Assembly (NCBI RefSeq): GCF_017993425.1
Contig: NZ_JAGOMQ010000003.1
Span: 62,001 to 126,000, forward strand
Reading direction: 5' to 3'
Source of the DNA: Amaricoccus sp.
GTDB lineage: Bacteria > Pseudomonadota > Alphaproteobacteria > Rhodobacterales > Rhodobacteraceae
Length of the DNA stretch: 64,000 nucleotides
The first letter of the stretch is position 1. Every line of letters begins with the position of its first letter. Of the stretch, positions 47 through 49,808 are shown piece by piece. The position numbers and the translations under genes were made by a program. The notes beneath the pieces are model-generated. The model saw only the letters and a program-made list of their open reading frames with translations, searched no databases and was not told the DNA's origin.

Positions 47-324
47 CGCCCTGCGGGACAGTGGAGACAGGGCGCGGCCCTAGGCTGGTCGCGACGTAGA
101 AGCCAGACGGATTTGACCCGTGGCAAATCCGTCCGTGATCGCCCCTGCGGGGGGCGAGCGCGATTCCGCGCTCGCCGGGGCGCTCACGGACGGATTGCGC
201 GCGACGGGGAAATCTGGACCCCCGCCGGCCTCCGCGCCAACGCGCTCCGGCCGCCGGCGCGGCGAAAGCTGTGCTTTCGCTTGTCGCGCCGGGCCTCGCG
301 GGCAAGCCCGCTTTGGTCGGGCGC
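47..324 (+). repeat. MITE-like element, copy 1 (right end truncated)
   Basis: This is the first of four copies of a hairpin-rich intergenic repeat; the others are at 19498-19847, about 40845-41161 and 41868-42186. The left end (47-60) matches the 14-bp terminal inverted repeat of the intact copies at 10 of 14 positions. The body carries the same nested inverted repeats, including GACGGATTTG/CAAATCCGTC and CGAAAGC/GCTTTCG. Similarity stops at about 324, just before the stop codon of the M20 peptidase gene, so the right terminal repeat is missing. Its internal sequence is closer to copy 3 than to copies 2 and 4, which suggests an older subfamily. The 46 bases to its left are AT-rich and hold no recognisable gene. 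Confidence 0.8.
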
Positions 325-18883: not shown

Positions 18884-19384
18884 CTAGATGCGCCGCGCCC
18901 GGGGCGTCGCCGCCAGCCGGACGACGCTGCGAAAGGTCTGCAACGACAGTTTCGTCTCGCAGGCCCGCCCCTCCTGGCTGCCCACCCAGATCTCGTACTT
19001 GCCCTCGCGCGGGGCGGCGATGCGGATGCGGGCGTTCCGCTCGCCGCCGTTGTCGTCGTCGAAGAACCAGCGCCCCGTGGGCGTGCGCAGCAGGATCACC
19101 GTGTCGCAGTCGCCCTCGGTGCGCACCTCCAGATCCATGCGCTTGCGGTCGGCGACGTAGAGGATGCTGGCGCTCGGGTCGAAGGGGATGTTCCCGGTCC
19201 CCGGCACCCCGTCGCAGAGCTCCAGCGGCACCGTTCCGCCGGCGCGCACCTCGGCGGTGAGCGGCGTGCGCAGCCGACCGGCCAGCACGTGCAGCGGGTC
19301 GATGGCGGTCGGCCCGCCCGGACAGGCGTCGGCCACGCCGGCCCAGACCATCAGGCACAAGAGCCCCAGAACCGCCCGCAGCAT
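18884..19384 (-). CDS. Secreted protein of unknown function, beta-sandwich-like
   Basis: This 166-residue protein has a signal peptide (MLRAVLGLLCLMVWAGVADA, cleavage before CPGG). The mature part is strand-rich, with DLEVRTEGDCDTVILLRTP, FFDDDNGG and YEIWVGSQEGRACE. The FDDDxxG segment and overall layout resemble pre-peptidase C-terminal-like domains, which bind calcium or carbohydrate. Five cysteines in the full-length protein, including the one right after the cleavage site, may form disulfides. It stands alone, and no function can be assigned. Confidence 0.75.
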   Translation of the reverse strand: MLRAVLGLLCLMVWAGVADACPGGPTAIDPLHVLAGRLRTPLTAEVRAGGTVPLELCDGVPGTGNIPFDPSASILYVADRKRMDLEVRTEGDCDTVILLRTPTGRWFFDDDNGGERNARIRIAAPREGKYEIWVGSQEGRACETKLSLQTFRSVVRLAATPRARRI

Positions 19385-19488: not shown

Positions 19489-19497
19489 GGGCAAGTC
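19489..19497. repeat. Target-site duplication, left side of MITE copy 2
   Basis: The 9-bp sequence GGGCAAGTC lies directly outside the left terminal repeat of the element and is repeated exactly at 19848-19856 outside the right one. A perfect flanking duplication is the hallmark of transposition. Confidence 0.9.
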
Positions 19498-19847
19498 CAC
19501 ACTGCACGACAGTGGAGAGGAAGCCCGGCCCGAGGCTGGCCGCGACGCCGACGCCAGACGGATTTGACCCGTGGCAAATCCGTCCGCGATCGCCCCTGCG
19601 GGGGGCGAGCGCGTCGCCGCGCTCGCCGGGGCGCTCACGGACGGATGGCGCGCTCCCGGAGAAATCGGCGCCCCTCACGGCTTCCGCGCCAACGCGCTCC
19701 AGCCGTCGGCGCGACAGGCGAAAGCCGTGCTTTCGCCTGTCGCGCCGGGCCTCGCGGGCAAGCCCGCTTCGGTCGGTCGGTCGGTCGGTCGGTCGGTCGG
19801 CGCGCGCCCCGTGGATCCAGCAGGGCAGACAGGTGTCGTGCAGTGTG
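19498..19847 (+). mobile_element. MITE-like non-autonomous transposon, copy 2 (intact)
   Basis: This is a 350-bp element with perfect 14-bp terminal inverted repeats, CACACTGCACGACA (19498-19511) and TGTCGTGCAGTGTG (19834-19847), flanked by the exact 9-bp duplication GGGCAAGTC. The body is nearly all nested inverted repeats: GACGGATTTG/CAAATCCGTC, GCGAGCGCG/CGCGCTCGC, CGAAAGC/GCTTTCG and GGCTTGCCCGC-type stems. A CGGT tetranucleotide tract lies near the right end. No transposase is encoded; the short reading frames across it are not conserved between copies. It fills most of the gap between the secreted-protein gene and trpA. Movement would need a transposase from elsewhere in the genome. Confidence 0.92.
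19770..19800 (+). repeat. CGGT tetranucleotide microsatellite
   Basis: Seven CGGT units plus CGG lie inside MITE copy 2. Copies 1 and 4 have about one unit at the same place and copy 3 about two, so this is a local expansion of the element, probably by replication slippage. Confidence 0.85.
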
Positions 19848-19856
19848 GGGCAAGTC

Positions 19857-19865: not shown

Positions 19866-19926
19866 CCTGAAATCGCAGGTATATCAGCTATTTGACTCGC
19901 GTCCCGCTGTGGGACACCCTGCCGGG

Positions 19927-20718
19927 TCAGGCCGAATGCGCCGCCTCGGCGAGGCTGCGGACGAAGGCGAGCACCTCGGCCGGGCTCTCGCCGGCGCCGA
20001 TCCGCTCGACGATGGCCGAGCCCACCACCGCCCCGTCGGCGATCGCGGCGATCGAGCCTGCGGCCTCGGGGCTGCGGATGCCGAAGCCGACGCAGACCGG
20101 CAGCGGCGTGCCCGCCTTGATCCGGGCGACCTCCGGCGCGATCGACGCGGCGTTGGCCTCCGCCGAGCCGGTGATCCCGGTGATCGAGACGTAGTAGACG
20201 AAGCCCGAGGTGTTGGTCAGCACCTTCGGCAGCCGCTTCGCATCGGTCGTCGGCGTGGCGAGGCGGATGAAGTTCAGCCCCGCCGCCTGCGCCGGCAGGC
20301 ACAGCTCCTCGTCCTCCTCGGGCGGCAGGTCGACGACGATCAGCCCGTCCACCCCCGCCCCGGACGCCTCCGCGAGGAAGCGCTCGACCCCCATCGAATA
20401 GATCGGGTTGTAGTAGCCCATCAGCACCACCGGCGTGGCGTCGTCGTCCTCCCGGAAGGCGCGAACCATGTCGAGGGTGCCCCGGAGCGTCTGTCCCGCC
20501 GCGAGCGCCCGCTGCCCGGCCCGCTGGATCGCCGGCCCGTCGGCCATCGGGTCGGTGAAGGGCATCCCGAGCTCGATCACGTCCACCCCCGCGCCGGGCA
20601 GGCCGCGGACGACGGCGAGCGAGGTGTCGGGGTCGGGATCGCCCGCCATGACGAAGGCGACGAAGGCCTTGCGGCGCTCGGCGCGCAGGCGATCAAAGGC
20701 GGCCTCGATGCGCGACAT
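19927..20718 (-). CDS. trpA: Tryptophan synthase alpha chain
   Basis: This 263-residue TIM-barrel enzyme releases indole from indole-3-glycerol phosphate. The catalytic glutamate and aspartate are in [19 protein letters not shown]. The phosphate-binding loops include [28 protein letters not shown] and [12 protein letters not shown]. The start at 20718 gives [14 protein letters not shown]. It normally works in a complex with TrpB, but no trpB or trpF is adjacent on the upstream side, where a 295-bp gap leads to a phosphatase gene. Confidence 0.96.
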
Positions 20719-40844: not shown

Positions 40845-41161
40845 TGCCACACGACCAGACGCCGGTTGCCCCCCCCGGGACGCCGACCGACCGAAGCGGG
40901 CTTGCCCGCGAGGCCACGGCGCGACAAGCGAAAGCACGGCTTTCGCCGCGCCGGCGGCCGGAGCGCGTTGGCGCGGAGGCCGGCGGGGGTTCAGATTTCC
41001 CCGTCGCGCGCAATCCGTCCGTGAGCGCCCCGGCGAGCGCGGAATCGCGCTCGCCCCCCCGAGGGGCGATCGCGGACGGATTTGCCACGGGTCAAATCCG
41101 TCTGGCGTCCCCGTCGCGGCCTGCTTCCGGCCGGGCTTCGGCTCCACCGTCGTGCCGGATG
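40845..41161 (-). repeat. MITE-like element, copy 3 (degraded ends)
   Basis: This is a reverse-orientation copy of the element seen intact at 19498-19847. The right end (41148-41161) matches the terminal repeat at 10 of 14 positions; the left end near 40845 is more degraded and no target duplication could be recognised. The internal sequence shares variants with copy 1 (such as the GGGGTTCAGATTTCC region), so these two form an older subfamily. It occupies most of the 488-bp gap between the micro-protein gene and mscL. Confidence 0.78.
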
Positions 41162-41858: not shown

Positions 41859-41867
41859 GGCCCGATT
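41859..41867. repeat. Target-site duplication, left side of MITE copy 4
   Basis: GGCCCGATT is repeated exactly at 42187-42195, on the other side of the element. The 9-bp length equals that at copy 2. Confidence 0.9.
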
Positions 41868-42186
41868 CACATTGCACGACACCTGCCCTGCCGGATCCAC
41901 GGGGCGCGCGGGCGACCGAAGCGGGCTTGCCCGCGAGGCCCGGCGCGACAAGCGAAAGCATGGCTTTCGCCGCGCCGACGGCTGGAGCGCGGTTGCGCGC
42001 GGAGGCCGTCAGGGGCGCAGATTTCTCCGGAAGCGCGCCATCCGTCCGTGAGCGCCCCGGCGAGCGCGTCCGCGCTCGCCCCCCGCAGGGGCGATCGCGG
42101 ACGGATTTGCCACGGGTCAAATCCGTCGGGCTTCACCGTCCCGCACCCTCCCGACCGATATTTCTCTCCACTGTCGTGTAGTGTGG
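41868..42186 (-). mobile_element. MITE-like non-autonomous transposon, copy 4 (intact)
   Basis: This 319-bp element lies in the opposite orientation to copy 2. The terminal repeats are CACATTGCACGACA (41868-41881) and TGTCGTGTAGTGTG (42173-42186), which differ from the copy 2 sequence by one base each, and the flanking 9-bp duplication is perfect. The internal sequence is closest to copy 2, with a shorter CGGT tract. No transposase is present. It lies between mscL and tonB. Confidence 0.92.
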
Positions 42187-42219
42187 GCCCGATTAGGTTC
42201 ACATTAACCACTCCAATAA

Positions 42220-42254
42220 AATCAATGGCTTGGATAATTTTCACGCGTGAACAG
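42220..42254 (+). repeat. 35-bp dispersed repeat, copy A
   Basis: This copy shares 34 of 35 bases with the reverse complement of 49544-49578. It contains the perfect 12-bp palindrome TTCACGCGTGAA at one end and the segment CAATGGCTTGG at the other. It lies in AT-rich sequence about 100 bp beyond the tonB stop codon and just outside MITE copy 4. Confidence 0.8.
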
Positions 42255-49424: not shown

Positions 49425-49543
49425 GCCCCTGCGGGCCGGGGGGGCAGCGCGGCAGGGGGCGTGCCGGCCGGCGGGTCGCGTGGGCGGAGAGCGCCGGTCA
49501 AGCGGTTTGGAATCACGCCGTGGGCGCCGGGTTCCGTACAGCG

Positions 49544-49578
49544 TGTTCACGCGTGAAAATTACCCAAGCCATTGATTT
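49544..49578 (-). repeat. 35-bp dispersed repeat, copy B
   Basis: This is the reverse complement of copy A at 42220-42254 with a single base difference. It has the same TTCACGCGTGAA palindrome and is also embedded in AT-rich sequence. Confidence 0.8.
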
Positions 49579-49808
49579 ATCATGATTTGTTATAATATAA
49601 CGTCAACGGAATACGCTGCAAGACGGAGGCGGCAGCGGTCGACCAGCGGCGAGGTCTCGCCTTCCCGACGGGTCCCACAGGGTGACATGCGCATGTCAAC
49701 CTGCTCGACGCGGAGCGGGTGGGGCAGGGAGGGCGCCAGTTCCAAGGGAGTCGAACGGCGCCGCGAGATGCGCCTCGTGTCCCGTAGTGCGTTGGCGAGA
49801 TCCGGCAC

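Follow-up and report, generated by a model that had tools for sequence, protein, structure and literature searches.

What might explain how a 350-bp stretch of Amaricoccus DNA, bounded by perfect inverted repeats and free of a transposase, came to stand behind trpA? The element occupies 19498-19847 of the window, which is the whole 64,000-nt stretch analysed (C12:62001-126000), between trpA, which runs on the reverse strand and terminates at 19927, and a short gene prediction (18884-19384). A sequence-only reading had seen in it an intact MITE with perfect 14-bp TIRs and exact 9-bp duplications on both sides, and this is borne out: the inverted repeats at its ends (TIR1, CACACTGCACGACA) are identical over 14 bp, or 15 bp if one base of each duplication is included, and GGGCAAGTC on either flank is a true target duplication. 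The accompanying description of a hairpin-built element also holds, no transposase being present inside 19498-19847 and both strands folding better than all of 100 shuffles (z -5.1 and -7.5). The element is a real mini-transposon, and the label given to it was right.

The element and its copies

TIR1 ends are not a product of chance, since the 14-mer with up to two mismatches occurs four times in the window against 0.20 expected, and the pattern CACAYTGCACGAC with at most one mismatch is found 195 times in the draft genome (4.24 Mb, 102 contigs) against three for the reversed control. A BLAST search of the genome gave 80 matches, where a single copy can account for more than one, and a covariance model of the folded core (R1), with 150 candidates scored, gave at least 151. 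Of the 142 core matches listed, DNA was analysed for 124, and 122 of these were scored for ends and duplications. At least 10 of 14 bases are kept in both TIRs of 83 copies, perfectly in 22. With the ends placed by TIR alone, the flanks of 52 of these 83 match at nine (34 copies) or eight (18 copies) of nine bases and those of 24 at five or fewer, whereas 20 nt further out no copy exceeds five. Further copies have decayed ends or are truncated and lack ends. Identity among 65 aligned copies is 79-99% (mean 90%), with lengths of 311-374 bp. The genome holds more than 100 insertions of mixed age, which are short, non-coding, TIR-bounded and flanked by duplications of one length (9 bp), and autonomous insertion sequences (IS) with the same ends exist, whole in two other genera (L236, L234) and as pieces in this genome. 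A comparison with plasmids and phages gave no match to the element.

Table 1. Features of the element and related sequences in the window
Feature	Position	Strand	Basis
Left target duplication GGGCAAGTC	19489..19497	.	sequence
Left TIR1 CACACTGCACGACA	19498..19511	+	sequence
Folded core, covariance model R1 match	19557..19771 (C12:81557-81771)	+	covariance search
Hairpin A (fold 1)	19557..19584	+	
Hairpin B (fold 1); TIR2 MITE entry point in other copies	19585..19613	+	
Fold 2 long stem, arms 19578-19600 / 19624-19646; excludes hairpins A and B	19578..19646	+	
Hairpin E, 19-bp perfect arms	19707..19747	+	
Right TIR1	19834..19847	-	
Right target duplication GGGCAAGTC	19848..19856	.	sequence
Imperfect palindrome GTCCCGCTGTGGGAC, centre 61 nt from element edge	19901..19915	-	M3 type, by eye; falls short of the 7-of-8 pair rule
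Second window copy with clear ends, inverted, 318 bp (41868-42185), duplications GGCCCGATT	41859..42194	-	
Core of older copy, decayed ends	106..315	+	
Core of older copy, decayed ends	40892..41102	-	
M1 motif pointing at second window copy	42219..42251 (C12:104219-104251)	-	
M1 motif without core MITE, E-type repeat next	49546..49578	+	

Copies also stand in tandem. The fetched loci contain 23 junctions of a right end with a left end, with spacers of 4-13 bp (8-10 bp in 19), and the tandem partners in C4 and C92 differ in length class, so the duplication of an older copy can serve as the exact landing place of a newer one. A tandem pair on C68 (L006:1157-1835) has an 8-bp spacer that reads as the outer duplication in reverse complement, as though it had been flipped between its flanking inverted ends. 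On C25 (L052:3737-3900) a core MITE is broken mid-way and joined to coding-like sequence, perhaps by an adjacent deletion.

Presence of the same element and flanks at the orthologous place would speak against recent movement, and the trpA loci of relatives are without the element: behind trpA, in the seven with a full locus, there is no hairpin A (four mismatches allowed) and no TIR1 pair within 1.5 kb. The gene order behind trpA differs, so this is an absence rather than a clean empty site.

Insertion sequences with the same ends

The sequence-only reading could not name the helper, a question now largely answered: it proposed looking for an IS that shares the ends and makes 9-bp duplications, and two such ISs were found. 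Two whole ISs in genera other than Amaricoccus have perfect 13-bp ends, one of 1175 bp (L236; TIR CACACTACACGAC, duplication ATCACGAAT, 9/9 bases) and one of 1168 bp (L234; TIR CATACTACACGAC, duplication CTTGGACTT, 9/9), and these are the 13-bp ends of the MITE save for position 7 (A for G). The transposases of the two ISs score 159 and 173 bits with NCBIfam transpos_IS4_2 (cut-off 152) and are above the cut-off of PF01609. Both contain DDE and YREK motifs; the D-D spacing is about 65 and the D-E spacing about 100 and 104, values close to the minimum of the IS4 ranges D(60-110)D(100-150)E with Y(2)R(3)E(6)K. Their length, 5'-CA ends and 9-bp duplication fit IS4Sa (1150-1750 bp, CA------T ends, 8-10 bp duplications; Table 1 of PMC2266710), base 9 being A where the consensus has T. 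Going by these ends, the element very probably uses the transposase of this IS family, and it is likely to be a type II MITE of an IS4Sa-like IS.

The assembly of this genome contains the TIR1 IS only in pieces, which stop at contig ends, and the piece on C65 is interrupted. IS left ends are present on C101, C8 (behind an M1 motif, described below) and C23. The last 311 bases of C101 (C101:72909) start with CACACTACACGACA followed by a transposase start, and this 78-residue piece has matches in seven of 295 family genomes. A C-terminal transposase piece lies at C65:3-116 and an IS right end at C65:2148-2161. The repeats of C23 and C65 read GGTCCGCC on the inner and AACGAGGG on the outer side, and the two contigs may be the two sides of one MITE - IS - MITE array across contig ends. 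Among this genome's fetched loci no TIR1 pair stands at IS distance with matching flanks. The lone exact TIR1 ends inspected belong to core copies; of the solo right ends found at junctions, several are part of the IS or of other repeats. PF01609 matches eight places in this genome, with TIR2 ends (see below) only at C67, and the TIR1 end at C101 lies outside that place's own element. Across 295 family genomes the TIR1 pattern has 17 matches in 15 others (three in G238) against seven in seven for the reversed pattern, a slight excess, and in none of the loci fetched around these matches (1.5 kb either side) does a left end precede a right end. Two further elements were seen: a transposase that by eye resembles the IS1595 type, with a second long frame, flanked by CAATTTAA within the TIR1 IS on C65 (L063:117-2150), and another IS4-type element on C101 (L228:540-2051) with transpos_IS4_3 above cut-off and ends CTTTCAGTTACCCACA / CTTTCAGTTACGCACA.

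A subset of core copies starts with CTACGGCATTCACAC and ends with GTGTGAATTCGCTAG, a second end pair (TIR2). Both ends could be placed in 10 of the 11 TIR2 MITEs examined; four have a 9/9 duplication at the fitted ends, and the other six have 7-9 duplication bases with one base of shift allowed. A 1492-bp IS with a TIR2 end (C67:371-1862) encodes an apparently Tn5-like, frame-broken transposase, whose broken piece matches Tn5 with E 2e-11 and reaches 130 bits with transpos_IS4_3, against a cut-off of 160. Its length is within the IS50 range and six of seven consensus end bases agree, the last W differing (1350-1550 bp, CW------Y---CA-A--W- ends; Table 1 of PMC2266710). No duplication is visible at this IS, the one copy found, where three of nine bases match. 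The IS stands at the start of C67 (L208:1-1885) inside an apparent CRISPR array, at a repeat. Two of the ten TIR2 MITEs lie inside hairpin B of another core (C41:43614 and C52:22232, joined flanks aligning across the junction), and the copy at C101:31673 combines a TIR2 left end with a TIR1 right end.

Placement beside palindromes and the folded core

By our own gene call, none of 114 copies extends further than 60 nt into a predicted gene. The gaps that hold them are convergent in 51 cases, co-directional in 53, divergent in eight and undetermined in two; equal numbers of convergent and divergent gaps would be expected, so either promoter regions are avoided or gene ends are sought. In co-directional gaps the core orientation is even (28 vs 25).

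Many copies stand beside a palindromic motif, M1, scored by its first 16 bases with two mismatches allowed and present 102 times in this genome. M1 lies within 120 bp of 46 of the 83 TIR1 copies, pointing at the element every time and at 49-52 nt in 43; the other 37 lack M1 in that range. Of the 80 copies whose flanks are long enough, 44 have M1 on one side and none has it on both, and the motif is conserved at about 1 bit per base, compared with almost nothing on the opposite flank. M1 was absent from 10 other genus genomes and, at three mismatches, from 393 other family genomes. Thirty exact M1 places were fetched irrespective of MITEs, and 28 of them follow the end of a co-directed predicted gene by 5-222 nt. 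Next after M1 comes, by the rule used here, a core in 21, an E-type repeat in five, the IS in one and none of these in three, and a TIR1-like end (at most four mismatches) lies 30-35 nt past the motif in 20. These E-type repeats are no more than putative TIR1 elements, as four of the five differ from TIR1 at 6-8 positions. They belong to a core-less family (..GACGGAGGCGGCAGCGGTCGACC..) seen at window 49501-49740 and at loci on C88, C67, C2, C68 and C79, also behind M1, which is perhaps another TIR1 MITE. Empty sites are also seen: when the flanks of the insertions at C88:23286, C79:13901 and C17:115143 are joined, each matches, through the junction and at 74-80%, the uninterrupted stretch 49541-49736 of the window. 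Target choice at M1 is the likely reading of this spacing.

Is a palindrome needed, or M1 itself? Around the 36 non-M1 copies, TCAAN4TTGA (one mismatch) is centred 42-43 nt away in eight of its 10 occurrences. A perfect-arm palindrome rule is not convincing (13 of 36 vs 3-11 in shifted windows). A 7-of-8-pair palindrome centred at 59-63 nt is found in 11 of 36, other 5-nt windows having a mean of 3.5 and a maximum of nine. The same rule applied to IS ends in other genomes gives two of 11 (other windows: mean 0.16, maximum one), and these two palindromes are of unrelated sequence, each with its centre 62 nt away. A palindrome rule beyond M1 is modestly supported by these counts.

The core itself, a covarying multi-hairpin of about 215 nt, occurs in seven of 11 genus genomes (this one, G003, G004, G005, G006, G007 and G009), model R1 giving no match in G001, G002, G008 and G010. 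In this species it is carried by both TIR1 and TIR2 ends. The 44 core loci from other species, on which the statement that the core is free of TIR1 there rests, contain five stretches equal to TIR1 at three mismatches and no pair around a core; of these species, only G009 was searched whole for TIR1. Fold 1 (hairpins A and B) and fold 2 (the long stem and hairpin C) have arms in common and are mutually exclusive. In alignment A2, 97.5% and 95.7% of cells are paired for folds 1 and 2, and 13 and 15 pairs are changed on both sides; none of 500 shuffles is as high, and slid versions are at most 47% paired. In alignment A3 (seven species, 5' domain only) the double-changed cells number 51 and 67 against 17 and 27 in shuffles, and the double-changed pairs number 10 and 11, values that two and 24 of 500 shuffles attain. 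In hairpin A, rows G3c-e do not align in register, and they weigh against that hairpin. Further pair types do not outnumber those in shuffles (for fold 1 on A3, 57 of 500 attain the same number). Both mutually exclusive folds covary, in structures derived from the same sequences and with scores inflated by relatedness. Arms 1, 2 and 3 change together and both folds stay paired; loops and single-stranded stretches are also conserved in A3. The two fold-2 stems have 23 and 11 A-C against four and two G-T mismatches, whereas hairpin B has 13 G-T against one A-C, a lean that hints at the opposite strand for fold 2 from few, non-independent events. Rfam gave nothing at gathering score; its one hit, to mir-278, is weak (E 0.14) and confined to a single hairpin. 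The hairpin A pattern was also seen in two Rhodobacter sp. MAGs (L246, L249).

Competing readings and known systems

The fixed distance to M1 could be inherited rather than chosen, if pad and element moved together as one larger unit. Restriction of M1 to this genome among the 11 genus and 394 family genomes searched would suit such co-mobilisation, as would the core MITE, E-type repeat or IS next to 27 of 30 exact M1 places and the weak correlation of pad with element sequences (Mantel r 0.165, p 0.006), where full independence would give none. However, the duplications adjoin the TIRs and vary between copies, orientation to the pad is free (26 vs 20 of 46, the same in only 41 of 74 pairs with near-identical pads), the IS, the core MITE and the E-type repeat all occupy the same position, and one M1 place (C4:69539, L275) looks empty; we consider joint movement quite improbable. 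It is far more improbable still that this is a REP/REPIN-like repeat rather than a transposon with DDE chemistry: palindromic, intergenic, multi-copy sequences with truncated copies that lack ends resemble REPs, but REPINs are dispersed by a tyrosine transposase (RAYT) that is not known to make 9-bp duplications, and the TIRs, the duplications and an IS with the same ends all argue against it.

What maintains two exclusive folds is a separate matter. The core could be a functional RNA or an attenuator-like switch, with selection acting on an RNA of two alternative folds and the transposon ends as incidental carriers, and covariation far above shuffles and slid controls, persistence without TIR1 in loci of other species, and fold-2 mismatches that lean to G-U on one strand all point that way. 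Against it are the lack of an Rfam match at gathering score, the even orientation among co-directional genes, the four genus genomes that lack the core, and pair types no more numerous than in shuffles; we consider an RNA role unlikely. We give a better chance, somewhat short of even, to upkeep at the DNA level with no RNA function: palindromic arms and copies could be kept alike by template switching or gene conversion, or hairpins could persist as an aid to termination behind genes. Arms that co-change while both folds stay paired are consistent with this, as are the excess of convergent gaps and the absence of a strand preference; conserved loops and single-stranded stretches speak against it.

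We hold, with a probability of about 0.85, that the element, a type II MITE, is mobilised in trans by an IS4Sa-like transposase, with palindrome-biased insertion and a genus-wide folded cargo. The enzyme would belong to the IS4 family, resembling IS4Sa in length, 5'-CA ends and 9-bp duplications, and would act in trans on the 13-14-bp TIR1. Elements are placed behind a gene with a palindrome centred about 60 bp away, most often M1, of which the genome has about 100, and the transposase, alone or with a host protein, would pick the palindrome. The genus-wide core could be viewed as cargo, carried between TIR1 and between TIR2 ends, that ISs would have captured after it arose. A more far-reaching version, doubtful as a whole, is that a group of IS4-type transposases targets by geometry, recognising nearly any palindrome behind a gene, perhaps extruded or protein-bound, cutting at a fixed distance of about 60 bp from its centre and filling nearly all of the roughly 100 pads in one species, with a cargo of conserved nucleic acid whose two exclusive folds are both kept.

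MITEs are common, but helper, placement rule and cargo origin are rarely all visible together. Here a single genome offers more than 100 insertions of mixed age, empty sites and placement precise to 1-2 bp, with matching ISs in other genera. The top results of the open-licence literature contained no paper on such elements from Amaricoccus. What is new is a core with two exclusive folds that is spread across the genus, its use by two end types and the fixed-distance placement; the core, the second set of ends and the placement lay beyond the reach of the sequence-only reading. The two-fold core also lends itself to telling RNA-level from DNA-level causes of covariation apart.

If the proposed placement is true, a transposase that measures from a palindrome to stay at gene ends would be a safe-site strategy outside Tn7. 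At attTn7, Tn7 inserts a set distance away from a gene-end signal, and TIR1 elements likewise keep a fixed distance from such a signal; unlike in Tn7, no targeting protein was found, either orientation occurs, the duplications are 9 bp and there are about 100 sites. ISs such as ISPsy8, ISPpu9/10 and ISRm22 choose palindromic extragenic repeats and insert into the REP (PMC1525189). TIR1 elements, by contrast, stand off to one side, with the palindrome about 60 bp away, while two TIR2 MITEs did enter a hairpin. ISRm22 is described as an IS4Sa member with conserved target arms (PMC2266710). The TIR1 IS shares with the IS4Sa described there its size (1168-1175 bp), 5'-CA ends, 9-bp duplications and DDE and YREK motifs, and differs in base 9 (A for consensus T) and in a palindrome about 60 bp off. 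The TIR2 IS is reminiscent of IS50 of the Tn5 type in its 1492 bp, six of seven end bases, apparent Tn5 transposase likeness and the 9-bp duplications at TIR2 MITEs, and differs in that its sole copy found is frame-broken and without visible duplication. Type II MITEs such as Chunjie, QMITE and Correia are under 500 bp, intergenic, bounded by TIRs and target duplications and without transposase, with likeness to the helper confined to the TIRs and with older copies that have lost their ends (PMC10969869), all of which the Amaricoccus element shares. It differs from them in being GC-rich, in its at least 151 core copies and fixed-distance placement, and in a covarying core that is present in relatives without these ends and that carries two end pairs.
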